Program-made: the position numbers and the translations under genes
Part shown: positions 3,308 through 23,435 of the stretch, piece by piece
Layout of the letters: each line of letters starts with the position of its first letter
Numbering within the stretch: position 1 is the first letter of the stretch
The notes under the pieces: model-generated
Databases searched by the model: none
Seen by the model: only the letters and a program-made list of their open reading frames with translations
Told to the model about the DNA's origin: nothing
Origin: a virus
IMG/VR virus record: IMGVR_UViG_3300002053_000032
Coordinates: 1-36,111 of that record
Direction: 5' to 3' (one strand)
DNA: 36,111 bases

Positions 3308-3682
3308 ATGTTTACATTGAAATACCCTCCAATCTCACCGTCTGATACAGTGGTTCTCAGGAATCCTGAGATTGGTGATATACAACGTGTACATGGCGAA
3401 GGTATTGTACGCCGTACACGCGGGGGTGATTTAAAAATCTTTAGAGATAATGATTGGCCTCAAGGACAGACAAATGTTTATGAGTTCCGCGCACTAACTG
3501 CTGCTCAAAAAGACGATTTAATAAGTTTCTTGCAAGATTATGCTGGATTAGAAATAGGTATTGAAGACCATTTAGGTCAAGACTGGACAGGTGTTATTAC
3601 TTCTTCTCCAAATGAAATTGTTACTGTTAGAGATGCTTGCTCATATGATGCTAGTTTTGAATTTTATGGAGCTAAAGTCTAG
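3308..3682 (+). CDS. Small tail protein, paralogue of next gene
   Basis: A 124-residue protein, probably a distal tail or tail-tip component acting between the tape measure and the baseplate protein. It starts 2 bp after the tape-measure stop. It shares with the next gene a Pro-rich N-terminus, the motif LRNPEIGD (LRNPDLGD next door), a central 'LTAAQKDDLISFLQ' helix (LTKAKVDELIDFLH next door) and a late W-x-G-x-I-T-x-x-PNEI segment. The pair is therefore a tandem duplication. I do not recognise a named family with certainty; the role is inferred from position and from the beta-rich, compact sequence. Confidence 0.7.
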   Translation: MFTLKYPPISPSDTVVLRNPEIGDIQRVHGEGIVRRTRGGDLKIFRDNDWPQGQTNVYEFRALTAAQKDDLISFLQDYAGLEIGIEDHLGQDWTGVITSSPNEIVTVRDACSYDASFEFYGAKV

Positions 3683-3695
3683 AAAGGGTATTTGA

Positions 3696-4100
3696 ATGAG
3701 TGTAAAATTTGAATATCCTTATGCTTCTCCAACTGTGGAGCTAAATTTAAGGAATCCCGATTTAGGGGATTCTATGCAGCATGATATTAAATTGCAGTAC
3801 GGTAGAGTTATGAATGGAAACTTATTTACATATAAATACACACCGGCTACGAAAAGACTACTTATGACATTTAGACATTTAACAAAAGCTAAGGTTGATG
3901 AATTAATAGATTTTCTGCATCAAACATCTGGTCGTGAGATTAAATATACTGATTACAATAATGTTGTGTGGCGGGGCGCAATAACTACAGACCCAAATGA
4001 AATAACTACACTTGGGCCTGTACAGGGTAGTGATGGCAGTAGTGCAGCGTGTATCGAAGTTAGTGAAATTACTATTGAGTTTGATGGGGAAGAAGTCTAA
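3696..4100 (+). CDS. Small tail protein, paralogue of previous gene
   Basis: A 134-residue protein and second copy of the tandem pair. Shared landmarks are LRNPDLGD near residue 18, LTKAKVDELIDFLH near 65, and WRGAITTDPNEIT near 90. It has an extra acidic C-terminal strand (ITIEFDGEEV). An AGAAAGGG Shine-Dalgarno lies about 8 bases upstream of the ATG. Its TAA stop overlaps the ATG of the next gene (TAATG), so the two are translationally coupled. It is likely a tail-tip/baseplate subunit that forms a mixed or sequential ring with its paralogue; that arrangement is inference. Confidence 0.7.
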   Translation: MSVKFEYPYASPTVELNLRNPDLGDSMQHDIKLQYGRVMNGNLFTYKYTPATKRLLMTFRHLTKAKVDELIDFLHQTSGREIKYTDYNNVVWRGAITTDPNEITTLGPVQGSDGSSAACIEVSEITIEFDGEEV

Positions 4101-9938: not shown

Positions 9939-10152
9939 TATAGGAGTTAAAGAGAAACAAACTGTGATTTATTCATCATTTGCTAAAGACCCTGAAATTA
10001 AAGGGGCAATTAAGGTAGCAACTAACAAAAAGATTCCTGTAACTGTTGAAGGAAAGTCGGATGTTGTAACAATGTTTGATGCCGGTGGTTATTACTTAGT
10101 ACATGAAAGAGACTTGAGGGCATTCTTAAATGCTATACGGAAAGTTCCGTAG
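9883..10152 (+). CDS. Lipoprotein, possible outer-membrane spanin-like protein
   Basis: The preferred start is ATG 9883, or GTG 9880 one codon earlier. It gives a textbook lipoprotein signal: MLICLPLLLMNCLLITG followed by the lipidated Cys at residue 18 (lipobox LITGC). The mature part is about 71 residues and ends YYLVHERDLRAFLNAIRKVP. The open frame extends back to a TTG at 9790, but that upstream part is Arg/Lys-rich and is the out-of-frame shadow of the preceding gene. The start lies inside the 57-residue gene. Overlap, lipobox and lysis-cluster position suggest a spanin or a lysis/immunity lipoprotein. Confidence 0.65.
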   Translation: MLICLPLLLMNCLLITGCSIGVKEKQTVIYSSFAKDPEIKGAIKVATNKKIPVTVEGKSDVVTMFDAGGYYLVHERDLRAFLNAIRKVP

Positions 10153-10414
10153 GCTTACGGCTGATACAATTTGTGCTCCCCGTCGGGGGCGGCCTCCGGT
10201 CGCCCCCGATGGGTATGAACCTGAAGCGGGGGACCCCTATGTTTTTCATATTAAATTACCTCCATGTGATAAACGTGAAGAAAGGATAGTTAAACGGCCA
10301 TGTTGTGACAAATTAATTATATGGTGTTTACTAATTGATACACCTGTTAGTCGGTGGAGTTGTGTGAATAGGTGCCCTAAAAATGTTGAAAACAATAGTA
10401 ATGACAACGTTTGA
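10130..10414 (+). CDS. Small cysteine-rich protein
   Basis: A 94-residue ORF whose second half carries six Cys spaced C-x(11)-CC-x(6)-C-x(11)-C-x(3)-C, suitable for metal binding or disulfides. The ATG lies in the last 23 bases of the lipoprotein gene, with a GAGGG about 10 bases upstream. The 3' end overlaps the first glycosyltransferase by 32 bases. The early part runs through a GC-rich hairpin (10181-10211) that encodes an Arg/Pro-rich segment, unlike the rest. The Cys half looks genuinely coding; the start and the first 30 residues are less certain. Function unknown. Confidence 0.45.
   Translation: MLYGKFRRLTADTICAPRRGRPPVAPDGYEPEAGDPYVFHIKLPPCDKREERIVKRPCCDKLIIWCLLIDTPVSRWSCVNRCPKNVENNSNDNV
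10181..10211 (+). other. Strong GC-rich hairpin
   Basis: An 11-bp stem (CGTCGGGGGCG pairing with CGCCCCCGATG, one G-T pair) with a 9-base loop, in otherwise AT-rich DNA. No T-run follows, so it is not a standard intrinsic terminator. It lies between the lysis genes and the glycan operon and could attenuate transcription or stabilise mRNA ends. That is inference. Confidence 0.55.
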
Positions 10415-11114
10415 CCGCGACTGCTTATTGCAGTTAGGTCTTGAATCAATACGCAGACACAATCCTGTTAGTATTGATTTAGAAATCTTAGTGGTTAATG
10501 ATGGCATACCGGGGAATGTTGAAAATATTTGTAGACTATTTAAAGCTAGACATATTTTTACAGGCTACCGCAATAAAGATAAAATGCACTGGAGGATACC
10601 CGGCTTTGCTATTAATATAGGTGTCAAGAAAGCTAAAGGGGATATAATCTTTTTAACATGCGCAGAAATGTGGCATGTTACAGATTGTGTGAATCCTATG
10701 GCTGATGCTATTGAAGCAGACCCTTGGGCATTAGCTATACCTGAAGGTAAAGATGATATGAATAATCGTTATTTACCCAATCTTGATAATGAACAAGTGT
10801 ATGCTGAATGTGTACCACTTAAGACCGAACTTCCTTTCCTAATGGCAATGCATAAAGATAGATTTATGGAGATAGGTGGGTATGATGAAGATTTTCTTGG
10901 ACAGTCTTATGACGACGATGATTTAGTTGAAAGACTACAAGCTCATGGTTGTCATTATAAAAAGGTAGATGCTAGGTGTGTTCATTTATATCATCCACGT
11001 TATTGCCACGATAAGCGTACTATGGGAAGACTACAACTAAATAAGAAACTATTTGAGGAACGTAAAGGACAAATAGTTCGTAATATTGGACGAGAGTGGG
11101 GTGTAATGTGTTAA
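10383..11114 (+). CDS. Glycosyltransferase, GT-A fold
   Basis: A 243-residue enzyme expected to transfer a sugar from a nucleotide-sugar donor. Seen: the N-terminal strand IVMTTFDRD, VVNDG near residues 37-41, and a late motif GGYDEDFLGQSYDDDDL near 178-194. The late motif resembles the acceptor-side motif (GGYDE..GGED) of GT27/chondroitin-type enzymes. The invariant-type DxD is not obvious; TCAEMW near 92 may take that place. It has no membrane segment. It is the first gene of the glycan island and its start overlaps the Cys-rich ORF. The substrate cannot be read from sequence. Confidence 0.75.
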   Translation: MLKTIVMTTFDRDCLLQLGLESIRRHNPVSIDLEILVVNDGIPGNVENICRLFKARHIFTGYRNKDKMHWRIPGFAINIGVKKAKGDIIFLTCAEMWHVTDCVNPMADAIEADPWALAIPEGKDDMNNRYLPNLDNEQVYAECVPLKTELPFLMAMHKDRFMEIGGYDEDFLGQSYDDDDLVERLQAHGCHYKKVDARCVHLYHPRYCHDKRTMGRLQLNKKLFEERKGQIVRNIGREWGVMC

Positions 11115-11689
11115 AAGATTATTGGGATGAACAACATAGACAACAAAATAAGAAAGCTCTTACTGGCTCAACATTAGACCAGTATTGTGAATTATTTGGC
11201 ATAACTAAAAAGTTTCTAAAAGATAAAAAGATTCTAGAAGTGGGCGTTGGATTAGGTAAAGCTACTAGAGAACTTGGGACACTAACGGATAATCTAGATG
11301 TTTTGGATATTTCATTAGTTGCATTAAGCAATGTTGCGGGGTGGGTTGCAAGAGGGTATGATACTGTAAAAGAGCTACCATTAAACTATTATGATGTTGT
11401 TTTATCTCATTTAGTAGCACAACATATGAATGATTCAGATTTAATAATACAGATGGAACATATTATTAAATCGTTAGTAGACAATGGAGTATTTTATATG
11501 CAGTGGGCAGATGCATACACACATAATATACCTGTAGATTTTATTATTGAGAAGGGTGGGGGCGTATTACGGGATATTGAAGAAATGGATAAACTTGTTA
11601 ACTATGCTGGTGGTGATTTAAAAATCGTAACAGTAAAAGGTATAACTGGTGCTGTTACTTGGTATGCTGGTGCTATAAGGAGGAAGTAA
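11108..11689 (+). CDS. Class I SAM-dependent methyltransferase
   Basis: A protein of about 193 residues. Motif I ILEVGVGLGKATREL binds S-adenosylmethionine; LDVLDIS is the acidic motif II region; YYDVVLSHLVAQHM is motif IV-like. Such enzymes often O-methylate sugars in glycan clusters. The frame is open from a GTG at 11096, but GTG 11108 gives the more usual overlap with the previous stop (TAA at 11112-11114). The TAA stop overlaps the ATG of the radical SAM gene. It is short for a small-molecule methyltransferase but has the complete Rossmann core. Substrate unknown; DNA methylation is unlikely because no DPPY-type motif is present. Confidence 0.75.
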   Translation: MLKDYWDEQHRQQNKKALTGSTLDQYCELFGITKKFLKDKKILEVGVGLGKATRELGTLTDNLDVLDISLVALSNVAGWVARGYDTVKELPLNYYDVVLSHLVAQHMNDSDLIIQMEHIIKSLVDNGVFYMQWADAYTHNIPVDFIIEKGGGVLRDIEEMDKLVNYAGGDLKIVTVKGITGAVTWYAGAIRRK

Positions 11690-12771
11690 TGTCATTAGAT
11701 AGCCCTAATTGCTATGCAACAGATAAAGTAATTTATCATCCAAGAATAGTGCAATCTTTTATGGCACACTGTAGCCATGAAATGTTTCCAGTATTTGTAC
11801 ATTTGATGCCTCAAAACTTTTGCAATCAGAACTGTGAGTTCTGTAGTTATAGAATGCAAGACTGGAAGAATTCTCAAAACTTTGATGCTCGTAGCCATTT
11901 ATCATGGGAGCGATTGCAAAAATTATTACATGAATTTCATGATATGGGAGTTAATGCACTTGAAATAACTGGTGGTGGTGAACCATTAGCGTACCCTGAT
12001 ATCCATAAACTTTTTGATGAATTATCGACTATGCCAATTGAAACAGCTTTAGTAACTAATGGTACTTTATTAAAAGAACGCACTGCTGATTTACTTTATC
12101 GGACACATTTACAATGGGCAAGAGTTTCAATTGACGCCGGTAATAAAAAGAATTACTGCAAAATACGTCGTTGTCCTGAATCCCATTGGGATATGGCATG
12201 GCGAGGAATTAGTAGGCTAGTTAGTCGTCAAACGCATCAAACAATTGGAATTGGTTTTGTTGTAACTGAACATAATTATATGGACATATTTGAATTATGT
12301 TCACGCGCAAAGAATGCAGGTGTTGATAATGTAAGAATATCTGTAGCTTTTACAACTAAAGGAGCGGATATATTAAGTCAAGAACAAAAGATGGAAGCAC
12401 GTAAGCAACTAGAAGAAGCTAGTAAACTTAATTGTAGAGTATTTAAAGTAGTAGACTTATTTGATGAGCGATTAAATAATCTTCGTCTATCGGCTGAAAA
12501 ACAAGATTATGATTATTGTGGAATAAAAGATTTATTATGTGTAATTGAAGGACAAGGAAATGTATACACATGTTGCACATTGACGGGTATGAAAGCCGGT
12601 TTCATTGGGAATATTATGGAACAATCTTTTGATAAATTATGGTCAGATAGAGTAAAATGGCGTGAAGAATTTGACCCGCGTAAAATGTGTAAATGTACTT
12701 GTCTATATGAAAAACGTAATCAAGTGATACTTGGATTACGTAATCCACCAGAGCATATTAATTTTATCTAG
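11689..12771 (+). CDS. Radical SAM enzyme with SPASM-like C-terminus
   Basis: A 360-residue enzyme that would cleave SAM at a [4Fe-4S] cluster to drive radical chemistry. The cluster-binding CxxxCxxC is CNQNCEFC at residues 45-52. EITGGGEPL is the GGE motif for SAM binding. Later Cys residues (a CC pair in YTCCTLTG and MCKCTCLYEKRN near the end) resemble a SPASM/twitch auxiliary cluster domain. The ATG at 11689 follows AAGGAGG and overlaps the previous stop; an upstream in-frame ATG (11659) is a shadow. Inside a glycosyltransferase operon it may epimerise, deoxygenate or cross-link a sugar or peptide substrate; which of these is unknown. Confidence 0.85.
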   Translation: MSLDSPNCYATDKVIYHPRIVQSFMAHCSHEMFPVFVHLMPQNFCNQNCEFCSYRMQDWKNSQNFDARSHLSWERLQKLLHEFHDMGVNALEITGGGEPLAYPDIHKLFDELSTMPIETALVTNGTLLKERTADLLYRTHLQWARVSIDAGNKKNYCKIRRCPESHWDMAWRGISRLVSRQTHQTIGIGFVVTEHNYMDIFELCSRAKNAGVDNVRISVAFTTKGADILSQEQKMEARKQLEEASKLNCRVFKVVDLFDERLNNLRLSAEKQDYDYCGIKDLLCVIEGQGNVYTCCTLTGMKAGFIGNIMEQSFDKLWSDRVKWREEFDPRKMCKCTCLYEKRNQVILGLRNPPEHINFI

Positions 12772-12780
12772 GAGCCAACA

Positions 12781-13521
12781 ATGTCGAACCCATTGGTTAC
12801 GATTTTTACATCCTGCCATAATCAAGGTGGGTATCTAAAGGAGGCTATTGAAAGTGTCCTTTGGCAAACCTACCCCGATTTTGAATACTTATTGTACGAT
12901 GATGGTAGTAGCGACGATACTCTTGATATTATGCGGCATTTTGCTAAACTTGATGATAGAATTAAAATCCTCAGTCTCCCAAAACAGAAGAATGTTGGTG
13001 TTGTTATTAATAAAAGTTTTTGCGATGCTCGTGGTAGTTTTTGGGTGTGGTGTCCTTCTGATGATGTACTTATGGATACTCTCGTTGAGCGGAAAGTAAG
13101 ATTAGCTAAAAAGCATCCTAATGCTGTCATATATGATAATTGGTATGTTATGAATGAAGTAGGTAAATTAGACCATCCAGTTGATGTCCCACCTATGACA
13201 CCTGTAGAATTTGCTGAAGAGGTTTGGCGTAGTAGTCCAATAGGGTTTACAGGTATATGGATACCAATGTCTGTTGTTATGGATATGGATTTAAAATTTC
13301 CAGAACATCTTCACTTTTCAGAAGATTTCTACTGGATGATTAAAGCTACAGTCCACGGTGTAGAATTCCGTGGATTACCGGATAGATTACATTATAAACG
13401 GAAACATCTTAATGCTTTAACTGCACAAAATATTGATGCTATATTAGACCAGATACCGCGTATACGTAAAGAATTAGCTGAGTATAAGGAATGGTGGGAG
13501 AAACAACATGTCAATACCTAA
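12781..13521 (+). CDS. Family 2-type glycosyltransferase
   Basis: A 246-residue inverting-type glycosyltransferase. Features: VTIFTSCHNQGGYLKEAI at the N-terminus, YDDGSSDDT at 39-47 (nucleotide binding) and CPSDDVL at 91-97 in the DxD position. A candidate catalytic-base motif is HFSEDFYW near residue 180. It is soluble with no membrane helix. An AGGAG lies 8 bases upstream of the ATG. The 3' end overlaps the next gene by 14 bases. It probably adds one residue to the glycan built by this operon; donor and acceptor unknown. Confidence 0.87.
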   Translation: MSNPLVTIFTSCHNQGGYLKEAIESVLWQTYPDFEYLLYDDGSSDDTLDIMRHFAKLDDRIKILSLPKQKNVGVVINKSFCDARGSFWVWCPSDDVLMDTLVERKVRLAKKHPNAVIYDNWYVMNEVGKLDHPVDVPPMTPVEFAEEVWRSSPIGFTGIWIPMSVVMDMDLKFPEHLHFSEDFYWMIKATVHGVEFRGLPDRLHYKRKHLNALTAQNIDAILDQIPRIRKELAEYKEWWEKQHVNT

Positions 13522-14368
13522 ACGCATATTTTTCTTTTGGGGCAATAATACAATGTCATGGATGAGATACATGACATTGAAAAGTTTTCGATTTTTAAAT
13601 CCTGATTGGCAAATTATACTATATGTGTCAAAATGTTCCAAGGATAAGAAACCGTGGATGGATGAAGTTGAGCAGGATTTCTTTGCTTTCAGAGGCAAGG
13701 ATTATCTGTATAAAGTACATGAACTAGGAGTGGAAATACATGAATGGTCGATGCCAGAGTTCCCCGATATTGGTGCCTCACATCTATCTAATTTTTTAAA
13801 GTGGTATAAGCTTCAAGCACACGGCGGCGTGTATGCAGATATGGATATTTTATGGATGCGAAGTATGGATGAGTTGTATAATGAAATGCAAAAATATGAT
13901 ACAGCCATATGTTCAACTAAGTATCTAAGTATCGGGTTACTTGGGTCATGTATTGGTAACAGAATGTTTCAATCTTTCTTCGACCATGCTCGTAAACATT
14001 ATGAACCTCATAGATACCAATGTGTAGGAGTAGAAAATATTTATGCGTTACTATATAATGATGATGCATTCTTGGCTAGTGGAGATGTTAATTGGGATTA
14101 CTTAGCTACTCGTAATATCCTACAAGATTTAAGGGATATGTTTCCTGATTTAAAAATCTTCAATATTCCATTTGGTCAAATATACCCATTCGGGTGTACT
14201 GAAGTAAATAAGATTTTTGAAGCAACTTATAGATTACCACCACATGTAGTAGCAATACATTGGTACGCTGGACACCCGATAGCACAACATTATAATGGAT
14301 TCATGCACGAAGATAATGTAAAGGATATCCGTAATACTTTTTCGGAGGTTGCTAATAGATATGTATAA
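13508..14368 (+). CDS. GT32-like glycosyltransferase (DxD sugar-binding)
   Basis: A 286-residue enzyme. It opens with IPKRIFFFWGNNTMSW and has NPDWQIILYV near residue 31. The DxD signature GGVYADMDILW places metal-binding Asp at 111 and 113. This is the pattern of Gly_transf_sug / GT32 capsular-polysaccharide-type enzymes. It overlaps the genes on both sides by 14 and 8 bases. It is homologous to the next gene: both have WG near residue 10, FLNPDW or FNPDW near 30, DxD at 111/113 and a late HW-x-x-GHP motif. The pair therefore looks like a duplication that diverged in acceptor or donor. Confidence 0.83.
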   Translation: MSIPKRIFFFWGNNTMSWMRYMTLKSFRFLNPDWQIILYVSKCSKDKKPWMDEVEQDFFAFRGKDYLYKVHELGVEIHEWSMPEFPDIGASHLSNFLKWYKLQAHGGVYADMDILWMRSMDELYNEMQKYDTAICSTKYLSIGLLGSCIGNRMFQSFFDHARKHYEPHRYQCVGVENIYALLYNDDAFLASGDVNWDYLATRNILQDLRDMFPDLKIFNIPFGQIYPFGCTEVNKIFEATYRLPPHVVAIHWYAGHPIAQHYNGFMHEDNVKDIRNTFSEVANRYV

Positions 14369-15155
14369 GATAGCACATTTCTATTGGGGCGGCAATCCTT
14401 TATCATATCTACGTTTTCTTACGGTAAAGAGTTTTATAGTATTTAATCCTGATTGGGAGGTTAGATTCTATGTCCCAAAAGTCCATAATACAAAGCTTCC
14501 ACAATGGGTATCCCATTCACATAAGATTAGATATACAGGCCATGATTATATGGCCGACCTTCGAAATCTTGGAGTCGAACCCCGTATATTCGATTTTCAT
14601 GCCGCGGGTTTCCCCAATGATATCCATGAAGCACAGAAATCAGACTTTCTGCGTTGGCACTTGCTCTATCATTCAGGAGGATTCTGGTCAGATACAGATG
14701 TAATATTCTGTAAGCCATTAACATATGAAAAATTTGACCAAGGTGATTTATGCATCACTGCTGATTTAGACCCTGTTGTATATTATATTGCTTATATTTA
14801 CTCTGTAAAACATAATATATTTATGGGACAAATACTTCGTGCCGCAAAACGTGAAAGTAATTTTGATAAATTAAATTATCAATGTCTTGGGAATGTACTT
14901 GTTAAGAAATGCTTCCCAAATCCTAAAGCACTTAATTGGATTGACCCTGTTGTTAATTTACCAGTTAAACGTGTACGGGATATTAGTAATATATTTGAAA
15001 AACGTAATGCCGTTGATATGTCGCGCAGTGTAGGATTACATTGGTTTGGTGGGCATCCTATGTCAACTAAATGGGAGAATATATTAACGCCGGAAGTAAT
15101 ACCTCATTGTAATACATCACTCTGTAATTTAATAAGGGAGGTTGGCTTATGCTAG
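14361..15155 (+). CDS. GT32-like glycosyltransferase, paralogue of previous
   Basis: A 264-residue enzyme starting at ATG 14361, about 12 bases after GGAGG; an in-frame TTG at 14349 is less likely. The start MYKIAHFYWGGNPLSY and NPDWEVRFYV mirror the previous gene. GGFWSDTDVIF carries Asp 111 and 113 as the DxD. LHWFGGHPMSTKW near the C-terminus parallels IHWYAGHPIAQHY next door. No membrane segment. It overlaps the following gene by 7 bases. Likely to act in the same glycan pathway; substrate unknown. Confidence 0.82.
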   Translation: MYKIAHFYWGGNPLSYLRFLTVKSFIVFNPDWEVRFYVPKVHNTKLPQWVSHSHKIRYTGHDYMADLRNLGVEPRIFDFHAAGFPNDIHEAQKSDFLRWHLLYHSGGFWSDTDVIFCKPLTYEKFDQGDLCITADLDPVVYYIAYIYSVKHNIFMGQILRAAKRESNFDKLNYQCLGNVLVKKCFPNPKALNWIDPVVNLPVKRVRDISNIFEKRNAVDMSRSVGLHWFGGHPMSTKWENILTPEVIPHCNTSLCNLIREVGLC

Positions 15156-16522
15156 TTGTAGCGTTCTATACAGAAAATACACCATACGAACATGAGATTG
15201 ACCATCTACGTGCTAGCTGCCATAAGTTAGATTTAAAATATCATTTTGAAGGTTATCAGAATCGTGGAGCTTGGGTACAGAATTGTGGTATAAAGCCTGA
15301 GTTTATTTTAGAGATGTTAACACGTTTCCAAGATGATTTACTTTATGTTGATGCAGATGCAGTAATTATGAAGTATCCAAAATTATTAGATATATTTGCT
15401 GGTGATATAGCTGCACATATAATGAAAGGTGGAGTCCTACTTAGTGGTACAGTATTCTTCCGTAACAATGAACGTGTTAAAAACTTAGTTAAAGAATGGG
15501 TAAAGAAGCAACAAAAAGATTATAATGTGTGGGACCAAAAAACATTACATGAAACTATCGTAGTTCATGGCCCACGTTTTGGTATAGAATTTGGGGAATT
15601 ACCGGCTACATATTGTAAGATTTTTGATAAGGATTGGGGAGAACCAGTTATCCAACACAATCAGAAAAGCCGGGAGTACAGGGAGAGAGTACACATGAGT
15701 ACATTAGATGGTGTTCCTGCTGAAATCCACAAGCAACGTATTTTTGTACATGGTGATGGGTCATTTACAATTCCACGTAAACACAAAGAAGCTGAAGCAT
15801 TCCTTGATTTAAACTTCAGACGTATTGCTGGTGAATTACGATGGGTGAAACGAGCATTTGAACCAGAAAGTCTTGATAGCTTAAAGCCATTGTTTAATGG
15901 CAAGAAGTGTTATATTATTGGAAAGGGTCCAAGTTTAGATAGATTAACACGTAATGCTTTTGCTGAAGAAGATGCTCCAGTTATTGCATTGAATGAAGCA
16001 ATACATAAAGTTGAAACATTAGGATTAAAAAATCCTTTATTTGCACTCCAACAAGATGCCGGCTTACATGCCACCTGCCGCCCAAAAACTGCATCAATAT
16101 TAGTATCGACAAATGCTCAACACTGGTATGCTGATGCTAGAAATAAGTATATATTTGATAGTCGTAAGATGGGATTGAGTGGTAGTCAACTTGCAGTTAT
16201 TTGTGCTATTGAAATTGCTAAGAGTCTTGGAGCAAAGTCTTTTGATTTAATATGCTTTGATGCATGTGTGAACAAAGAAATAGCCTATGCAAAATGCATA
16301 GGCTATGAACCTACTAGGGGTGGTGACCCGAAGAGATTTTTAAATCATCGTAAACACATTGAAAAACACATCAAAGGATTTGTTGTAAATTGGGTTATTC
16401 CAACAACCCGCCCATCCCCAACATCTTCTTATACACCTTTGAAGCAACAAGAGCATCCTGAAGAGCATCGTGAGCGCGTTCATGCGGAACCTTCAGGGTT
16501 GAAGCAAGATACACAAGATTAA
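15149..16522 (+). CDS. Bifunctional-looking glycosyltransferase plus DUF115/MptE-like domain
   Basis: A 457-residue two-part protein. Residues 1 to about 220 look like a GT-A nucleotide-sugar transferase, with LLYVDADAVI giving Asp 68/70. Residues about 250-415 contain KCYIIGKGPSLDRL, ALNEAI and SGSQLAVICAIEIAKSLGA, the Rossmann-like pattern of DUF115 (6-hydroxymethylpterin pyrophosphokinase MptE-like) proteins, often found with surface-glycan genes. AGGGAGG lies 8 bases upstream. The last 42 residues (from about 416) are Pro/Glu/His-rich and are encoded on the antisense of the exonuclease 3' end, so they look like a run-on extension. A 12-bp stem hairpin lies in the gene at 16280-16306. Confidence 0.78.
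   Translation: MLVVAFYTENTPYEHEIDHLRASCHKLDLKYHFEGYQNRGAWVQNCGIKPEFILEMLTRFQDDLLYVDADAVIMKYPKLLDIFAGDIAAHIMKGGVLLSGTVFFRNNERVKNLVKEWVKKQQKDYNVWDQKTLHETIVVHGPRFGIEFGELPATYCKIFDKDWGEPVIQHNQKSREYRERVHMSTLDGVPAEIHKQRIFVHGDGSFTIPRKHKEAEAFLDLNFRRIAGELRWVKRAFEPESLDSLKPLFNGKKCYIIGKGPSLDRLTRNAFAEEDAPVIALNEAIHKVETLGLKNPLFALQQDAGLHATCRPKTASILVSTNAQHWYADARNKYIFDSRKMGLSGSQLAVICAIEIAKSLGAKSFDLICFDACVNKEIAYAKCIGYEPTRGGDPKRFLNHRKHIEKHIKGFVVNWVIPTTRPSPTSSYTPLKQQEHPEEHRERVHAEPSGLKQDTQD
16280..16306 (+). other. Perfect 12-bp stem hairpin near end of glycan operon
   Basis: The arms ATAGCCTATGCA and TGCATAGGCTAT are separated by AAA. It lies in the last coding part of the GT/DUF115 gene, 89 bases before the convergent exonuclease stop. 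There is no T-run. It could act as a bidirectional pause or mRNA-stabilising element at the convergent boundary; that is inference. Confidence 0.6.
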
Positions 16523-17027
16523 TTTTTGAGAATGGTACTTTGATTGCTCTCATTGCTGCACGGTCATTAAGATAGTTGGCAGTAATCATAGTGTCAACAT
16601 AATGATAATCAAACCATTCATTGTATTGCTCAATACCTAGCCATGCTTGAATAAAACCTTTATCGAAACAATAGTTTTGACCTAACGGGATAATTCGCTT
16701 GGGCCTTCCGCTAGGTGTATGCGGGAGGCCCAATTTTTGTATCCAGTCATGTAATAATTGTTGAGCAGTTTCTTTATCAAAACCTTTGAAGATAATATCG
16801 TCTAGGCTGATTTTATTAACTTTCATTGCTTCAGCAGTAATGCGTTCTGGATGTTCAGGACGCATGTATATACAGAATGGTTGTACGTCTTTACGAGGTT
16901 CGATATTTGAATCAAGTGGAATAATTGCTAATTGTAAAATTTCGTCCCAACTTGAATCTAGTCCCGTTGTTTCACAATCAATTGCACACAATTGATTACC
17001 ATTCCAGTGAACCATTGAAGTTGCCAT
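16395..17027 (-). CDS. DnaQ/RNase T-like 3'-5' exonuclease
   Basis: A 210-residue DEDD-family exonuclease. ExoI is AIDCETTGLD (Asp 17, Glu 19), ExoII is GQNYCFDKGF (Asp 122) and ExoIII is HDALQDAL (His 186, Asp 191), so it is the DEDDh type. It would degrade DNA or RNA 3' ends, as a proofreading or nucleotide-recycling activity in addition to the exonuclease domain in the polymerase. GAGG lies about 6 bases upstream of the ATG. It is the last gene of the leftward primase operon and its 3' end overlaps the rightward glycan operon by 128 bp. Confidence 0.87.
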   Translation of the reverse strand: MATSMVHWNGNQLCAIDCETTGLDSSWDEILQLAIIPLDSNIEPRKDVQPFCIYMRPEHPERITAEAMKVNKISLDDIIFKGFDKETAQQLLHDWIQKLGLPHTPSGRPKRIIPLGQNYCFDKGFIQAWLGIEQYNEWFDYHYVDTMITANYLNDRAAMRAIKVPFSKINLVYLASTLKVPHERAHDALQDALVASKVYKKMLGMGGLLE

Positions 17028-17038
17028 TGTTACCTCGC

Positions 17039-17067
17039 TTAAGGCATTGGGTCGATTAAGGCATTGG
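17039..17067 (-). repeat. Two 12-bp direct repeats carrying ATG-CCT-TAA mini-cistrons
   Basis: TTAAGGCATTGG occurs at 17039-17050 and again at 17056-17067 (17-bp period). Read on the - strand each gives CCAATGCCTTAA, a Met-Pro-stop mini-frame, just upstream of the exonuclease ATG. A similar CGATGCCTTGA ends the gene at 17303. The repeats may be remnants of gene-end duplication or a leader element. Confidence 0.5.
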
Positions 17068-17077
17068 TAAATTTATA

Positions 17078-17290
17078 TTAACCTCCACCATGTATAAATT
17101 CTTCTTCACCACGATAAGGAGCAATTGCAATTTGAACTGTTAGAATGATTTTTGAATCAGTTGGCTCAATTGGGTCTAATAATACAGAAGCGTTTTCTTG
17201 GTGTAATACTTCTCGTTTGTCTGCCTTATAATTTTCTAAGGCTCGCTCAAATAATTTTCTAAATTGTTCTTCTTGTCTAGCTGTAAGCAT
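17078..17290 (-). CDS. Hypothetical 70-residue protein
   Basis: Unrecognised. The N-terminal half is a charged helix (RQEEQFRKLFERALENYK); the second half is beta-like (SKIILTVQIAIAPYRGEEEF). GGAG precedes the ATG by about 10 bases. The gene contains one copy of the dispersed 14-bp motif (17146-17159). It belongs to the leftward early operon; the small size and strand suggest an early accessory protein. Confidence 0.6.
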   Translation of the reverse strand: MLTARQEEQFRKLFERALENYKADKREVLHQENASVLLDPIEPTDSKIILTVQIAIAPYRGEEEFIHGGG

Positions 17291-17302
17291 CCATTACTCC
17301 AA

Positions 17303-17566
17303 TCAAGGCATCGACAATACTTTGTCTATTAACTCTAAATACCCGCAAGTGTCCACTCGATTATCGCGTTTAGCTTCGTGGTATTCGCGGGCAAGTTTTA
17401 CTGCTACCATAAACATCAAGCCCTGTGTAACTGATAATTTAACGCCGGTAAGTAATTCAAAAATATTGACGGTGCGTTGCCAATTATCTTTAACGTTGCC
17501 ATATGCGTCTTGACGTTCACCATTGATTAATTTATCAGCTTCTAATAGAATAGAAACTCTATCCAT
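17303..17566 (-). CDS. DUF6378-like phage protein
   Basis: An 87-residue protein starting MDRVSILLEADKLINGERQD and continuing AYGNVKDNWQRT. That signature (ERQDAYG then W, with a VAVKLAR helix and an RVDTCGYLELID end) matches the small phage family I know as DUF6378, whose role is not established. AGGAG lies 8 bases upstream of the ATG at 17566, which decides this start over the ATG at 17596. It sits in the leftward replication operon. Confidence 0.72.
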   Translation of the reverse strand: MDRVSILLEADKLINGERQDAYGNVKDNWQRTVNIFELLTGVKLSVTQGLMFMVAVKLAREYHEAKRDNRVDTCGYLELIDKVLSMP

Positions 17567-17596
17567 AGTTAATCTCCTAAAATGCACATTGTGCAA

Positions 17597-17767
17597 TTAA
17601 TCTTTTTCAAGATTAGCATTAATGGCTCTCATTTGTTTTAATGCCGCATCGCGTGAGTCATGTCCTCCACCATCCAACGGTGTTCCCGCCTTATTCGTCT
17701 CAATTTGTCGAGAGGCACAGTTCACTATGCGGTACTTCTTTCCACGCTTTTCGACGCATACCGGCAT
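17597..17767 (-). CDS. Small conserved-type phage protein
   Basis: 56 residues starting MPVCVEKRGKKYRIVNCAS, followed by a Gly-rich turn (LDGGGHDS) and a helix (DAALKQMRAINANLEK). The ATG at 17767 overlaps the previous stop (TGATG) and is preceded by GGGAGG, so it is preferred to the upstream ATG at 17782. Function unknown. The two Cys and a short basic strand might suit a small nucleic-acid or metal-binding protein, but nothing decisive is seen. Confidence 0.6.
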   Translation of the reverse strand: MPVCVEKRGKKYRIVNCASRQIETNKAGTPLDGGGHDSRDAALKQMRAINANLEKD

Positions 17768-17988
17768 CAGGCATCCTCCCAATCTATTGTAGGCTCAGTG
17801 CTCACGGTTCCGACTTTAACTACACTTAATTGATAAATTACAACATGTTCACCGTCTTCACATAACTCAAGAATTTTGATTTCTGCATCATCTAATGACT
17901 TGAAGGTTTCTATAATGTTTCCGTCTTTGTCAATAACTTCAGGAACAGGATTCTTACGACCGATTAAAAAATCTGTGTGCTTTGGCAT
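17767..17988 (-). CDS. Hypothetical 73-residue protein
   Basis: Unrecognised acidic protein (pattern VIDKDGNIIETFKSLDDAE, then ILELCEDGEHVVIYQ), probably a small alpha/beta fold. AAGGAGG lies 8 bases before the ATG. The ATG overlaps a TAA at 17988-17990 that closes an untranslated-looking in-frame extension of the upstream gene, and the stop overlaps the next start. It contains one 14-bp motif (17877-17890, - orientation). Confidence 0.6.
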   Translation of the reverse strand: MPKHTDFLIGRKNPVPEVIDKDGNIIETFKSLDDAEIKILELCEDGEHVVIYQLSVVKVGTVSTEPTIDWEDA

Positions 17989-18047
17989 TACTTTTCCTCC
18001 TTGAGAACATTTTCTAAAGTAGCCACAATGGCTTCTTCAGGGTTGTT

Positions 18048-18392
18048 TTAGCCACGATGTTGCTCCCGTTCTTCATTATCGAGTTTGATAGCTAATGCAA
18101 GCATACGTAGTGCCATATGTACTCTAGAAGATTGACCACCACCAACCATAGGTGTACAGAATTCTAAATCAATATGAAATTCTCCTTTTGTCATACCAAT
18201 ATGCCCGTCACCATCCTCACCAATAATAACTGTCAAATAACCATTAGGTGACATATCTTCATATCTACTATAGAATTTATGTGATTCGAGTGAAGGATAC
18301 CAAGCTGGCTCTTCAAGTAATTTAATAACTCGTTTTTCAAGTATGTCACCGGCTATAAATTCCATACCATCTAATGCAAGTTGTTCAGCCAC
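18048..18392 (-). CDS. Hypothetical protein, possibly truncated by an in-frame TAA
   Basis: A protein of about 114 residues. GTG 18392 has GGGGAGG 6 bases upstream and is preferred to TTG 18407. Seen: LEEPAWYPSLESHKFYSRYE and a Gly-rich middle (IIGEDGDGHIGMTKGEF), then a helix ending EEREQHRG. After the TAA at 18048-18050 the same frame stays open for 19 more codons with a plausible helix (NPEEAIVATLENVLKEEK) and stops at TAA overlapping the next ATG. The present stop may therefore be a recent nonsense change or a leaky stop. Function not recognised. Confidence 0.6.
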   Translation of the reverse strand: MAEQLALDGMEFIAGDILEKRVIKLLEEPAWYPSLESHKFYSRYEDMSPNGYLTVIIGEDGDGHIGMTKGEFHIDLEFCTPMVGGGQSSRVHMALRMLALAIKLDNEEREQHRG

Positions 18393-18582
18393 CTTTAACC
18401 TCCCCAATAGCCCAATCGCCGGCCTCTTCAGTAACCTTTAAATGTTTGATATGTTTAACATTTACACCAATAAATCTTCTATCAGCAAGCTCAACATGCT
18501 GAGTGATTTTATGCTCAAAGGCATACATGAGCAATCTACGTTGCTCATCAGAGAGTGAGTTTAATACTTCTTTTATACTCAT
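18385..18582 (-). CDS. Hypothetical 65-residue protein
   Basis: Starts MSIKEVLNSLSDEQRRLLMY, a helical N-terminus, then a basic stretch rich in His/Lys (VNVKHIKHLKVTEE). No clear Shine-Dalgarno is seen; instead a copy of the dispersed 14-bp motif (18588-18601) lies between the primase stop and this ATG. It overlaps the next gene by about 8 bases. Function unknown; by context an early replication accessory. Confidence 0.55.
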   Translation of the reverse strand: MSIKEVLNSLSDEQRRLLMYAFEHKITQHVELADRRFIGVNVKHIKHLKVTEEAGDWAIGEVKGG

Positions 18583-18587
18583 TGGTT

Positions 18588-18601
18588 TGATTTATTCATC
18601 A
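18588..18601 (-). promoter_or_regulatory. 14-bp motif at primase stop / next start
   Basis: Reads TGATGAATAAATCA on the - strand, an exact match to TGATK-N4-AATCA. It overlaps the primase stop and lies 6 bases before the next ATG. The same 14-mer (TGATTTATTCATCA on +) recurs at 9965 and 29862. Confidence 0.5.
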
Positions 18602-21285
18602 GCCGGAACTAAGTATCCATCCCTAATTATTAATTTAGAACTAGCTGGTTCTTCAGGCATTTGCACACCTGCCCAAGCAATATTACCAATAAAGAACTGT
18701 CCAGTTTTCCGGCAACGTCCTTTCGGGTATTGTGGTGGTAATTCTCTACCTACACGTATCTTACTCCATTTATGAATCTCATTTGGTTCAAGCCATTCTA
18801 TATATTTTTCATAAAGTTCTGAGAATTTGATTCTATGCCCATAACTATGAGCACATTTTTCTCTTAAAAATCTTTCCAACTCTGTTTGATTAAGTTCTTG
18901 TGCAATAACCTTATCTTCCGTGGCAAGTACCGGAACATTGAGTCGGTCATATGACGGTGGAATTTCCAAGCGCATAATCTCCGCAAGGAAATCCGGTGCT
19001 TCTTTCTCCAATAACGTGATAAGTTGCTTTTTAGGAATAAGCTCTGTTGGGTCGATAAGTTCAACATACGACATCGTGATTCTTGTATCACCGGTGAAGA
19101 TGGGACAACTTTGATGGTCGTTACTACACTGAATCCAGTGGGTCGAGTTGGGTATATGATACGGTGTCTTACCTTTACAATGAATGAGCAGCTCCCTACT
19201 GGTAACCCAATCCTTAATTCTGTTATAGGCTTGACGGTTACGTCGCAGGTCAGTTTCTTCAACAACACAAATTATAGCTCCTTCAAGTTCGGCATTGAAT
19301 CCTGCTTGAGAAATCAAAGCGGCATCTGCTCTCTTGTATCCTTTTGTTAGAAGGATATTGAGAGCTTCATGGAATATAGACTTACCGCTATTTTGTGGCC
19401 CGTAGAAGAATAAATAGGGTAAAGGTTCAAGTGGCTCTTGGAATAGTGAAGCTATCCAACACTTAAGATAGTCTCCACCTGTCAAGATTCCATTGGCTTT
19501 GCACCAAGGATTTGACTTGACTGTATCATCAAGACCTTTACCACAATGGTCAAGAATTCTTTTCCATGTTGGATAGTTTAAAGATTCTTTATTCTGTGTT
19601 GGTGTATAACGGAATTGAGCCGCATTCCGGTTCCATTCCCTATCACCGGGATATTCCGTTTGAAATGGCTTGTTAACTACTTTCCAACATTTGAAGACAC
19701 TGGCTCCAAGTATTGTAGTTATTTCTTTGTTACTTAATCCAAGTGAAGCTAGTGCCACACGAATATGCTGTAAAGGTTCGTGACGCCACTTGGCGTCTGA
19801 TTTAATCATCCAACCATAGTCTTCATTTGTTTCAGTAACAAGATGTCTGACTAAATCATCATAGTTTCCAACTTCCTGCTCAACAGGAGCCGAAACTTGA
19901 GTATTAAATATTTTTATCCATTCACTTTTCTTCGGCAACCACCCTTGCATTTCATCGGCGCGGTCGGCTTCTTTCCGCTCGACAACGGCAATAAGCCTAC
20001 CGTCTTTGTGCTGTTTGAGTTTTGCTTCACGGGACTTGAGAGGCGCACCGACATCAAGTGTGACGCCAAGCAACTGCGCCGATTTTTCGGCGACTTCAGC
20101 TTCTCTAAAAATAAAGCCGCCTTTAGGGTCTTCAAGCGCCCCAAACGCTTTGCTTGCAGTACGAAGGTCCGCCTCCCGATTAAGGTAACACCGGGTCCAA
20201 CCTTGACCGTCTTGGTCCCATGATTCATGTTCTTGTACTCCCGGTGTATAACGTCTTATTGTCCATGCACCTTTACGCATAGGGAATGCAAAACAGTTTT
20301 GTTCATTTGGGTTAGTTGCCTTGGTGTTTGATTCAAAAAATCCTTTGAAGTCTAATTCTTTATGAGCTTTCTGTAACCAATAAGTATGTGTTACAAGCAT
20401 ATGATGGTCTTGGTCCCACCACCAAAATGCATTCTCATTCTTTAAATACTCAATTAACTTTTTGTGTTCTTCATCAAGCGGGACTCGCGGTCTTTGTCCA
20501 GCAAGTTCTTCAAACGAATCCCCGCGTCCGATTGCTTCGATAAGTTGTGGGAGATTCTTGCGGCGTGAACCAGTAATAACTTTAACATGGTCACGCCAAT
20601 TCGGAGGGATTTCATCAAGGACTGTACCTTGTTTAATAAGTCTAAGACCATCTGTTCCCTCCATCTTGCGGTGCCATACCCACATGTTACCACCGCAGAT
20701 GTCAACTTTGCTATGAAAATCAAAACCAGTTAACGCAGACATCTTGCCAAGGATTGCCCTAGCAAGTGCTGCATGTTCATTATGATTCTTTGTTGGAATA
20801 TCTTTCAGGAATACATACAAATGTATGCCAGTTCCTGAAGTAGATTTACGGACTGTGACCCAAGGGATTTTTGAAGCAGCATCCCTAACAGCTTCTAATT
20901 CTTCATTAGTTAGTTTACCACCATGTTTATCACTGTGTCCAATTATGGCATCAAAATCAAATGCTACCCACTTGGAGCATCTATGTAACCAATCCCAACC
21001 GGTCATGCCTATTGCTTCAGCATGTTCAGCTAAGTCAAACTTGATTTCTTTATCAGAGTATTCAGGCTCGGTAGAGGCTTTATAAGGTATCCTAAAACTT
21101 TTCCAAGTAGTTAAGCCGTCGGTCCAACCATGCCAACGCCTACCTTCAAATTCAGCGTCAACACGTTCGCCGCCGTCTTGGGCGACATTGACTTGGCATT
21201 CTATATGCAAGCCGTACAAATCGGCTAAATCTTTGTGTGTCTTTGCTGATAAGAATCGTTTGATTGCCTCTGACCGCGTTGGCAT
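18592..21285 (-). CDS. Primase (AEP) - SF3 (D5-type) helicase
   Basis: An 897-residue replication enzyme expected to prime and unwind phage DNA. N-terminal archaeo-eukaryotic primase-like part: VAFDFDAI (Asp 110/112, metal site) and SGTGIHLYVF at 150-159 (the sGxHxxF nucleotide-binding motif). C-terminal SF3 helicase: Walker A GPQNSGKS near residue 628, VVEETDL as Walker B, and motif C WIQCSND near 717. It starts at the ATG ending at 21285; AAGGTG lies upstream, and a 14-bp motif copy occupies the space between it and the ATG. It is the first gene of the leftward operon, divergent from ParB-like 1. Confidence 0.9.
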   Translation of the reverse strand: MPTRSEAIKRFLSAKTHKDLADLYGLHIECQVNVAQDGGERVDAEFEGRRWHGWTDGLTTWKSFRIPYKASTEPEYSDKEIKFDLAEHAEAIGMTGWDWLHRCSKWVAFDFDAIIGHSDKHGGKLTNEELEAVRDAASKIPWVTVRKSTSGTGIHLYVFLKDIPTKNHNEHAALARAILGKMSALTGFDFHSKVDICGGNMWVWHRKMEGTDGLRLIKQGTVLDEIPPNWRDHVKVITGSRRKNLPQLIEAIGRGDSFEELAGQRPRVPLDEEHKKLIEYLKNENAFWWWDQDHHMLVTHTYWLQKAHKELDFKGFFESNTKATNPNEQNCFAFPMRKGAWTIRRYTPGVQEHESWDQDGQGWTRCYLNREADLRTASKAFGALEDPKGGFIFREAEVAEKSAQLLGVTLDVGAPLKSREAKLKQHKDGRLIAVVERKEADRADEMQGWLPKKSEWIKIFNTQVSAPVEQEVGNYDDLVRHLVTETNEDYGWMIKSDAKWRHEPLQHIRVALASLGLSNKEITTILGASVFKCWKVVNKPFQTEYPGDREWNRNAAQFRYTPTQNKESLNYPTWKRILDHCGKGLDDTVKSNPWCKANGILTGGDYLKCWIASLFQEPLEPLPYLFFYGPQNSGKSIFHEALNILLTKGYKRADAALISQAGFNAELEGAIICVVEETDLRRNRQAYNRIKDWVTSRELLIHCKGKTPYHIPNSTHWIQCSNDHQSCPIFTGDTRITMSYVELIDPTELIPKKQLITLLEKEAPDFLAEIMRLEIPPSYDRLNVPVLATEDKVIAQELNQTELERFLREKCAHSYGHRIKFSELYEKYIEWLEPNEIHKWSKIRVGRELPPQYPKGRCRKTGQFFIGNIAWAGVQMPEEPASSKLIIRDGYLVPADE

Positions 21286-21298
21286 GATTAAAAAATCA
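21285..21298 (-). promoter_or_regulatory. 14-bp motif covering the primase start
   Basis: On the - strand TGATTTTTTAATCA; its last A is the first base of the primase ATG, and it fills the space after the Shine-Dalgarno. This is a position where a bound protein or an mRNA fold could control translation or early transcription. Confidence 0.55.
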
Positions 21299-21412
21299 CC
21301 TTTCTTGGGCTTGATAAAATTATCAAAACTTAAAAATCAAATCATTTTTCAGGGATTCAAGAATCCGCCACTAGGCTTTACGGTTATTTACTGGAAATTT
21401 TAACTGAAATCT

Positions 21413-21438
21413 GTAAGTTACGTAATTAGGTCACTTAC
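21413..21438. promoter_or_regulatory. Imperfect 26-bp palindrome (operator-like)
   Basis: Half-sites GTAAGTTACGTAA and TTAGGTCACTTAC, symmetric except for two base pairs. Same family as 21538-21565, 33033-33058 and 33107-33130 (consensus half TAAGTSACSTAA). Confidence 0.65.
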
Positions 21439-21452
21439 TGTTTTACCTACTG

Positions 21453-21473
21453 ACTGTAGTAAAATCCTACAGT
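21453..21473. other. Short inverted repeat
   Basis: ACTGTAG - 7-base spacer - CTACAGT, perfect 7-bp arms, between the two large palindromes. It could form a hairpin or be a binding site. Confidence 0.5.
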
Positions 21474-21537
21474 AATAATAATATATTAAGGAATATCCTA
21501 TTATAATATAGCGCGGGAGAGAGTCAGTCATATCGAA

Positions 21538-21565
21538 CGTAAGTCACGTAATTACGTGACTTACG
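21538..21565. promoter_or_regulatory. Perfect 28-bp palindrome (operator-like)
   Basis: Half-site CGTAAGTCACGTAA followed by its exact reverse complement. Length and perfect symmetry suggest a high-affinity site for a dimeric or tetrameric DNA-binding protein. Confidence 0.75.
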
Positions 21566-21625
21566 GATTTTGGTTAAATTTTCCGGTAAATATCCGTAAA
21601 ACCGTGTGAGGGACTATAGACTTTC

Positions 21626-21649
21626 AGGAGGGAGGTGCCTATGCGTTAG
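21626..21649 (+). other. Strong Shine-Dalgarno with two-codon minigene
   Basis: AGGAGGGAGG is followed, at good spacing, by ATG CGT TAG (21641-21649), a Met-Arg-stop frame, about 75 bases before ParB-like 1. It may be a leader minigene or an accidental start. No longer frame begins here. Confidence 0.4.
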
Positions 21650-21680
21650 TTTTGATTTGATTTCTGTTTATCGGTCGGTT

Positions 21681-21694
21681 TGATTTTCTAATCA
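21681..21694 (+). promoter_or_regulatory. 14-bp motif upstream of ParB-like 1
   Basis: TGATTTTCTAATCA. Directly next to it, 21694-21707 (AGATGCAAAAATCA) is a one-mismatch copy ending in the Shine-Dalgarno AAGGAG. The two lie in tandem just before the ParB-like 1 start. Confidence 0.5.
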
Positions 21695-21722
21695 GATGCA
21701 AAAATCAAGGAGAGAATGGAAG

Positions 21723-22697
21723 ATGGGACAGCTAACTACTATTAAACTGGCAGAAATCCGCGAGAACCCCGTTGCCCTTCGTTCGGTCAATAAGGACTCT
21801 GAGCAGTATCAGGGACTTGTTGATTCAATCAGACAGAAGGGCTTTTTCGGCGCTATCACTGTCCGTCAGCAGGAGGACAAGGAAAGCGGCGATACCTATT
21901 ACGAGTTGGTGGACGGTCTGCACCGTTTCTGTGCCGCCAAGGATGCTGGCCTTGAGGAAATTAACTGCGATATCGTCACTTATGGCGATGATGCAGTTCT
22001 TGAGGCACAAATCATGGCGAATATTCACAAGGTGGAGACTCGCCCCGTTGAGTATTCCAAGCAGTTGACACGCATCCTTACCCGTAATCCGCTTATGACT
22101 GAGGCCGAGCTTGCGACTAAGCTTGGCAAGTCTCCGCAGTGGATTCAGCAGAGGCTTGGACTGACCAAGATTTCCGATGAGGGAATCATCAAGTTGGTCG
22201 ATGAGGGAAAAATCAAACTGGCAAACGCCTATGCCCTTGCCAAGCTTCCGCCTGAGGAAATGGCGAATTTCGTTGACAGGGCTATGACTCAACAGCCTGA
22301 CGAGTTTGTTCCGGCTGTCAACGCCCGCGTGAAGGAGATTCGTGAGGCCAAGAGGGCCGGGCAGGATGCCGCTCCCGCCGAGTTCCAGCCTGTTGCTTTC
22401 ATGCAGAAGCTTACTGACATCAAGACAGAGCTTGAGAGTGGTGCGGTCGCTAAGGTGCTGTGTCAGGGCCTTAAGACTCCCGCTGACGGCTTTGCTATGG
22501 CTGTCAAGTGGGCACTGCACCTTGACCCGAAATCCGTTGAGGCTCAGAAGGCCAAGGACGAGGAGCGCAAGCAGAAGGTTGAGGAGCAGAAGAAGAAGCG
22601 TGAGGCGGAGAAGGCCAAGAAGCGTGCTGAGAAGGCCAAGGAGAAGGCCGAGGAGGCCGCGAAGGCTGCCGCCGAAGCTGCTGCAAATCTTGAGTGA
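21723..22697 (+). CDS. ParB-like nuclease-fold/HTH protein 1
   Basis: A 324-residue protein. An N-terminal ParB/Srx-type domain carries ELVDGLHRFCAAK (residues 61-73, in place of GERRxxA) and NIHKVETRPVEY (100-111). An HTH follows (ELATKLGKSPQWIQQRLGL). The last 60 residues are an Ala/Lys/Glu coiled coil. It may bind DNA sites for partition, replication control or transcription. The AAGGAG to ATG 21723 spacing (about 9) decides the start over ATG 21696. Codon use is strikingly GC-rich (GCC, GAG, AAG, CGC) against AT-rich neighbours. The stop codon TGA is the first part of a 14-bp motif copy (22695-22708). Confidence 0.85.
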   Translation: MGQLTTIKLAEIRENPVALRSVNKDSEQYQGLVDSIRQKGFFGAITVRQQEDKESGDTYYELVDGLHRFCAAKDAGLEEINCDIVTYGDDAVLEAQIMANIHKVETRPVEYSKQLTRILTRNPLMTEAELATKLGKSPQWIQQRLGLTKISDEGIIKLVDEGKIKLANAYALAKLPPEEMANFVDRAMTQQPDEFVPAVNARVKEIREAKRAGQDAAPAEFQPVAFMQKLTDIKTELESGAVAKVLCQGLKTPADGFAMAVKWALHLDPKSVEAQKAKDEERKQKVEEQKKKREAEKAKKRAEKAKEKAEEAAKAAAEAAANLE

Positions 22698-22708
22698 TTT
22701 CTAAATCA
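22695..22708 (+). promoter_or_regulatory. 14-bp motif between ParB-like 1 and next gene
   Basis: TGATTTCTAAATCA, beginning with the TGA stop of ParB-like 1 and ending about 20 bases before the Shine-Dalgarno of the next gene. Confidence 0.45.
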
Positions 22709-22733
22709 TCGAACATAGAGAAAGGAACCAACA

Positions 22734-23393
22734 ATGCCTGAGAATGAAAATGCCATGATACCGGCGGAAGTGGCCGGTGGCCTTGCAAAGTTCGATGATG
22801 ATGTATTCGCCAAGATGAAGTCGGGGGACTTCCTTCCTAGACTTCAGCTTATGACGGCCAACAGTGATAAGTGTAAGGAAGGGCAGTTCCCCATTAATCA
22901 CTATGCCTTTATCCGTGACCAGAATTTTCAGGACTTGGGTGAAACCGTTGATGTTTTAATCATCACTTGGAGGCCAAAGGCTCTTGAAATTGGTGATGAT
23001 GTTACAAGCGTGTTCGACCCTGAGCATGAAGAGTTCGCACGGATACAGGAGAAATCTGCGGAGGCCAATTCCGGTTGCATGTACGGGCCGGAGTTCCTTG
23101 TCTATATTCCTCAAATCAATGAGTTCGCAACATTCTTCTGTGGCTCCAAATCATCGAGGCGGGAGGCCCCAAACATCCGAGCATTAATGACGAAACCTGC
23201 AACATTGAAGTCAAGGTTTGTTGAAACCAAAAAGTATAAGTGGTATACTCCCGCTGTCACTCCTTGTTCCACTCCGTTCAATCCTCCTGATATGGACGCA
23301 CTGAAGAAGATTGTTGATAAATTCAACAATCCTCCAAAGTTCGAGAAGGAAGTTGCGGACGGCGCCGACGAAAAGGATGGGCGCGAACGGTAA
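22734..23393 (+). CDS. Conserved phage replication-region protein, possibly ssDNA-binding
   Basis: A 219-residue protein. It has FLPRLQLMTANSDKCKEGQF near 33, DVLIITWRPKAL near 73, an SGCMYGPEFLVYIP strand pair and GSKSSRREAPNIR near 137, then an acidic tail (FEKEVADGADEKDGRER). It resembles a phage protein often found beside DNA polymerase and helicase genes. Beta-rich content plus an acidic C-terminus suits a single-strand-binding protein, but I cannot prove that. GC-rich like ParB-like 1, and directly downstream with an AAAGGA site. It contains one 14-bp motif (22949-22962). Confidence 0.6.
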   Translation: MPENENAMIPAEVAGGLAKFDDDVFAKMKSGDFLPRLQLMTANSDKCKEGQFPINHYAFIRDQNFQDLGETVDVLIITWRPKALEIGDDVTSVFDPEHEEFARIQEKSAEANSGCMYGPEFLVYIPQINEFATFFCGSKSSRREAPNIRALMTKPATLKSRFVETKKYKWYTPAVTPCSTPFNPPDMDALKKIVDKFNNPPKFEKEVADGADEKDGRER

Positions 23394-23403
23394 TCGCGTT
23401 CAA

Positions 23404-23435
23404 GGGTGGGACCGGTCGGGGGACCGGTCCCACCC
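23404..23435 (+). terminator. Very stable hairpin, terminator-like
   Basis: A perfect 14-bp GC-rich stem (GGGTGGGACCGGTC with its complement) and a GGGG loop, 10 bases after the preceding stop. What follows is ACTATTAATT rather than a T-run, so termination may be partial or the hairpin may protect the mRNA 3' end. It separates the GC-rich ParB/SSB-like pair from the AT-rich genes. Confidence 0.6.

Follow-up and report, generated by a model that had tools for sequence, protein, structure and literature searches.

A variable site in a group of related phages holds a putative glycan-assembly cassette with a radical SAM enzyme

The IMG/VR record IMGVR_UViG_3300002053_000032 carries an island of seven genes on its plus strand, at 10383-16522. 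The window analysed here (36,111 bases, linear) is this whole record, a genome fragment that starts inside the tape measure gene, within which it was cut. A second record, IMG/VR 3300002052_000169, represents the same phage, with 99.99% identity over 9,380 bases (window 14140-23519). All seven open reading frames were confirmed to be intact, and the names given to them by a sequence-only reading were roughly correct, in that Pfam supports each of them, P2 and the DUF115 domain with matches below the cut-off. The genes and the two edges of the site are the following:

10130..10414, plus strand: w8, small cysteine-rich protein of 94 aa, left edge of the variable site, present even without the cassette
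10383..11114, plus strand: P1, GT-A glycosyltransferase of the Glyco_tranf_2_2 / GalT-7C type (Pfam; alignment of five relatives)
11096..11689, plus strand: P2, class I SAM methyltransferase, optional (weak Pfam match; site comparison)
11689..12771, plus strand: P3, radical SAM enzyme of 360 aa with a SPASM/twitch-like C-terminus (Pfam; invariant cysteines; model)
12781..13521, plus strand: P4, GT2 glycosyltransferase, no membrane segment (Pfam; PDB search; hydropathy)
13508..14368, plus strand: P5, GT32-like glycosyltransferase with DMD motif (Pfam; alignment)
14361..15155, plus strand: P6, GT32-like paralogue of P5 with DTD motif (Pfam; alignment)
15149..16522, plus strand: P7, fusion of a GT-A domain with DADA motif and a DUF115/MptE-like domain with GKGPSL motif (Pfam; alignments; Foldseek)
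16395..17027, minus strand: dnaQ-type exonuclease, right edge of the variable site (Pfam RNase_T; PHROG 192; conserved boundary)

The tight overlaps described earlier exist at most junctions, which overlap or abut, with the exception of P3/P4, where the genes are separated by a 9-bp gap. P1 and P2 overlap by 19 bp when P2 starts at GTG 11096, a start that is ambiguous as a second in-frame GTG occurs at 11108; P2 and P3 meet in TAATG, and the P4/P5, P5/P6 and P6/P7 overlaps measure 14, 8 and 7 bp. P3 starts at ATG 11689, at the TAATG junction and preceded by AGGAGG, and because of this upstream AGGAGG a start at TTG 11659 was rejected. For P6, ATG 14361 is probably the start rather than TTG 14349, at which the open reading frame begins. 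The cassette shares the strand of the genes for tail and fibre and lies where this tail-gene strand ends, and the late timing of its expression is read from gene strand alone. Upstream of it are encoded a 136-aa protein with one transmembrane segment, a 120-aa lipoprotein-like protein and w8, none with a clear family match, and no endolysin was identified among the upstream genes; of the flanks proposed earlier, the convergent boundary (dnaQ) was thus recovered and the lysis genes were not. Elsewhere in the window, the fibre gene is preceded by a pair of small paralogues (3308-4100), the first of which corresponds to the C-terminus of a 489-756-aa protein in some relatives. Most relatives read retain the two ParB-like genes (21696-22697 and 26737-27558) that border the helicase region.

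P1 matches Glyco_tranf_2_2 (7e-10) and Glyco_transf_7C (7e-8), and its C-terminal part resembles a beta-1,4-galactosyltransferase. In the alignment of five relatives, CAE stands in place of the usual DxD, conserved as TCAE[MI][WY]H, together with a second conserved motif, GYDEDF.GQ.[YF]DD[DN]D. P2 matches Methyltransf_12 at 3e-5, under the curated cut-off; it is missing from the closest relative (G001), and in two others (L167 and L170) an unrelated methyltransferase-like gene occupies its slot after P1 and ahead of the radical SAM gene. P4 matches Glycos_transf_2 at 3e-23 and is chondroitin/heparosan synthase-like in a PDB search, while P5 and P6 each match Gly_transf_sug at about 3e-7. Hydropathy analysis detected no membrane segment in P1-P7. 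All six genes shared by the window and G001 (63-73% amino acid identity) have dN values of 0.20-0.32 and a saturated dS (at least 1.7), which points to purifying selection on six of the seven genes (not P2).

P7 matches Nucleotid_trans (7e-6) and MptE-like/DUF115 (PF01973; 5e-4, 20 bits, below the 34.6 cut-off), and alignments showed that its DADA and GKGPSL motifs are kept across relatives. Since its model, built with 8 sequences, is of modest quality (pLDDT 77), its fold matches are interpreted domain by domain only: in Foldseek, the modelled N-terminal part resembles GT6/GT8-type enzymes and the PBCV-1 glycosyltransferase 2p72, and the C-terminal part the DUF115 M. jannaschii HPPK 8sd5. The conserved core stops near residue 425 and the later tail is antisense to the dnaQ 3' end, with an overlap of 128 bp (window 16395-16522); several relatives' P7 genes stop before or within this tail, so that the overlap length varies. 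Stop-codon recoding, considered on account of stops inside the P7 of relatives, was rejected, because the inspected stops fall in the dnaQ-overlapping tail.

P3 matches Radical_SAM at 2e-21 and SPASM at 1e-5 (26 bits, above the 21.5 cut-off). The cluster motif CxxxCxxC (C45, C49, C52) is invariant in 36 homologues, as are C277, C295, C296, C334 and C338 in the C-terminal part, and the presence of five C-terminal cysteines, not about seven, suggests that this part probably holds a single auxiliary Fe-S cluster. The P3 model (pLDDT 94) resembles SuiB, DesII, SkfB and BlsE, with the peptide enzymes SuiB and SkfB ranking as high as the sugar enzymes; in a profile search BlsE is the top match. As these matches span sugar and peptide enzymes, structure alone gives no verdict and genomic context decides.

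A scan of viral contigs with the single P3 sequence yielded no match, and a scan with a profile of the P3 family found relatives in at least 589 viral contigs, mostly beside glycosyltransferases. Among 80 viral loci with a radical SAM gene, a glycosyltransferase lies within four genes at 62, and the other 18 have no recognised glycosyltransferase nearby. Across these 80 loci, glycosyltransferases make up 124 of 594 near genes compared to 39 of 625 farther genes, and methyltransferases 15 compared to 2 in the same two sets. GT2 and methyltransferase families also top the Pfam tally of 140 radical SAM neighbours. Some viral cassettes (L103, L151, L156) hold two radical SAM genes with glycosyltransferases between or beside them, and in one contig (G013, 1607-2674) a radical SAM gene about 34-36% identical to P3 lies near head genes, off the cassette site. 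Bacterial relatives of P3 adjoin epimerases, C-methyltransferases and split transketolases, in clusters of the sugar-nucleotide/polysaccharide type. In four loci with such bacterial relatives (L273, L256, L259 and L268; Helicobacter cinaedi, Geotalea and others) the same kind of cluster recurs. It contains methyltransferases and more radical SAM genes, in some cases also a split transketolase, and may represent a branched-sugar pathway that has not been described.

Related viral contigs, 22 in number, were found via the DNA polymerase, which, like P1 and P5, has no named relative among isolated phages; the primase is weakly similar to that of siphoviruses such as BcepNazgul. The relatives share the layout of fibre gene, variable block, convergent dnaQ, primase and replication genes, and the small one-transmembrane and lipoprotein genes after the fibre gene occur in only part of them. 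The w8 family, with conserved cysteines, is found directly left of the block in every relative with a readable site; in one of them (G018, 33681-33986) a second copy exists elsewhere. With w8 (left) and dnaQ (right) as anchors and duplicate contigs removed, 29 sites were obtained; in a few cases, G005 among them, one anchor lies beyond the contig or was uncalled. Their contents range from empty (2 of 29; G018, G021) via DUF115 alone (3 of 29; G009, G010, G011) and P1-radical SAM-P7 (G014, G016, L179, L181) to long cassettes (window, G001, G004, L167, L170). Of the 29 sites, 27 include a DUF115 gene, at nearly all of them as the final cassette gene, and the contents are almost exclusively glycan-type or methyltransferase genes. 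Another cassette type (G007, 14421-15236; G012, 14523-15344; L172, 6166-6996) has GT2 and methyltransferase-like genes, and before P7 a protein that by eye resembles a phosphoribosyltransferase/HAD fusion. From these comparisons, phages seem to swap such sugar-building cassettes in and out.

Nine sites have both P1 and the radical SAM gene, and the other 20 have neither (Fisher p 1e-7, uncorrected for relatedness), the nine representing perhaps four or five lineages. The radical SAM proteins fall into two groups, one (window, G001, L179) with 52-68% and the other (G004, G014, G016, L167, L170, L181) with 47-74% identity, and only about 28% (26-32%) between them; a quick tree that included three members of group two placed these far from group one. 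P1, with identities of 36-73%, has no matching split (window vs G014 55%, window vs L179 50%), nor does DUF115. Since two radical SAM lineages occupy the slot with P1 and DUF115 homologous throughout, the pairing looks functional, and from the sequences it looks as if the radical SAM enzyme was replaced while its partner P1 stayed. Such a replacement would be the best evidence that the slot needs this enzyme type.

Conservation, synteny and neighbourhood statistics support the earlier view of the island as a glycan-modification cassette. We propose that it is one allele of an exchangeable phage glycan-assembly cassette at a fixed w8-dnaQ site, with soluble enzymes, radical sugar chemistry and a virion protein as target, a proposal that we judge to have about equal chances of being right or wrong. 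Soluble cytoplasmic glycosyltransferases would assemble a short oligosaccharide from host NDP-sugars: P7 would attach or start it, P1 would handle the sugar that serves as substrate of P3, which would epimerise, oxidise or deoxygenate it before or after transfer, P4, P5 and P6 would extend the chain, and P2 would cap it. The acceptor would be a virion protein synthesised in the cytoplasm, so that particles would vary in a serotype-like manner. The lack of membrane segments favours a cytoplasmic acceptor and, with the strand shared with tail and fibre genes, makes a virion protein the likeliest one. Among the relatives compared, no cassette-linked change was seen in the capsid C-terminus and only a slight change in that of the putative tail tube, so that neither signal is convincing. 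A more tentative extension, which we hold to be rather doubtful, is that P1-type glycosyltransferases and radical SAM enzymes are obligate partners in many phages, making a radically altered virion sugar, and that the swapping of radical SAM lineages yields coats of different chemistry, so that radical chemistry would underlie a kind of phage serotype switching. Phage-encoded glycans shape particle recognition and phage-phage competition. With two lineages in one slot, the pair can be put to a concrete biochemical test with two genes, and the bounded site supplies natural empty-site controls.

Against a virion target, a cytoplasmic glycosyltransferase could also use a host lipid-linked sugar, and during infection the cassette might instead act on a glycan of the host surface (O-antigen, capsule or lipid-linked precursor), altering it so as to exclude rival phages. 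This explanation, which we consider unlikely while giving it a real share, fits the resemblance of P4 to polysaccharide synthase glycosyltransferases, the bacterial clusters around P3 relatives and the similar interpretation of pelagimyophage glycosyltransferases in PMC7029224; it is countered by the lack of a flippase, a GtrA/GtrC-like or any other membrane protein in the cassette, and by its location among virion and fibre genes where the tail-gene strand ends, which would be late for surface exclusion. Where GtrABC systems have membrane-bound GtrA/GtrB/GtrC, P1-P7 have no transmembrane segment, which argues against Gtr-type serotype conversion. That the enzymes hypermodify phage DNA, as in T4 or TET-type phages, is improbable: phage glycosyltransferases able to do so are on record (Pyle 2024, as cited in PMC12619734), but here the tail-gene strand carries the cassette, at a distance from the replication genes, and two relatives retaining the replication module have an empty site. 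Furthermore, the thymidylate synthase/hydroxymethylase family was found in 0 of 15 relatives with a positive control, the window and several relatives being fragments, and TET/JBP dioxygenase gave no match, with a control that was equally silent.

We likewise see only a slim chance that P3 is a maturase for a ribosomal peptide which the glycosyltransferases then glycosylate, even though the modelled P3 structure has SuiB and SkfB among its best matches and the cysteine-rich w8 lies immediately upstream. w8 occurs in all relatives with or without a radical SAM gene, no other small open reading frame tracks the enzyme at the sites compared, and the about 44 residues ahead of CxxxCxxC are too short for a leader-binding domain; the peptide product entertained earlier is thus disfavoured, as no precursor follows the enzyme. 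Finally, a tolerant site that takes varied genes and may be empty could have gathered unrelated passengers by chance. We regard this as very improbable, and from the sequences the strict pairing of P1 with the radical SAM enzyme and the dN/dS values already refute it for the most part; the catalytic motifs are conserved and nearly all site genes are of glycan type or methyltransferases. Passengers with broken active sites, named beforehand as what would overturn the cassette, are very unlikely given conservation, synteny and neighbourhoods.

To our knowledge, no radical enzyme acting on phage glycans has been characterised, and we found none in the literature searched. The proposed cassette resembles capsid glycosylation of chlorovirus PBCV-1 in its virus-encoded soluble glycosyltransferases, with the modelled P7 GT domain close to 2p72, and differs from it in that PBCV-1 has a eukaryotic host. 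We know of no radical SAM enzyme in that system. BlsE, DesII and NeoN/HygY share with P3 a radical SAM fold with an auxiliary domain and act on sugars (NeoN and HygY; PMC10991966), as proposed for P3, but they belong to antibiotic biosynthesis and are at most about 20% identical to P3 in structure alignments. Clustered glycosyltransferase and methyltransferase genes, as in phage virion glycosylation systems, are present in the cassette. In mycobacteriophages, phage enzymes glycosylate capsid and tail tube (Freeman 2023, cited in PMC12619734 and PMC10955285), and the excerpts of these two articles mention no radical SAM enzyme. The pelagimyophage host-recognition hypervariable region is, like the cassette site, a glycosyltransferase-rich variable region next to tail-fibre genes, in which radical SAM cassettes were noted in passing, but it belongs to T4-like myophages, and the portion of the article seen describes no obligate glycosyltransferase-radical SAM pair or single bounded site (PMC7029224). 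A co-occurrence of radical SAM, glycosyltransferase and methyltransferase genes has also been described for marine viromes (PMC7150976). We found no description of a bounded swap site, an obligate P1-radical SAM pair or a lineage exchange in one slot, whereas radical SAM cassettes among phage glycosyltransferases are already on record. The combination was called unrecognised at the outset, but neighbourhoods of radical SAM, glycosyltransferase and methyltransferase genes are common in viral contigs and were noted in pelagimyophages (PMC7029224), and a similar set occurs in Caudoviricetes sp. ctQWt234 (MW202801). The latter is a podophage with its cassette between capsid and stabilisation genes and a radical SAM enzyme only about 22% identical, but it likewise carries radical SAM, glycosyltransferase, PhyH, methyltransferase, NodB-like and glycosyltransferase genes consecutively.
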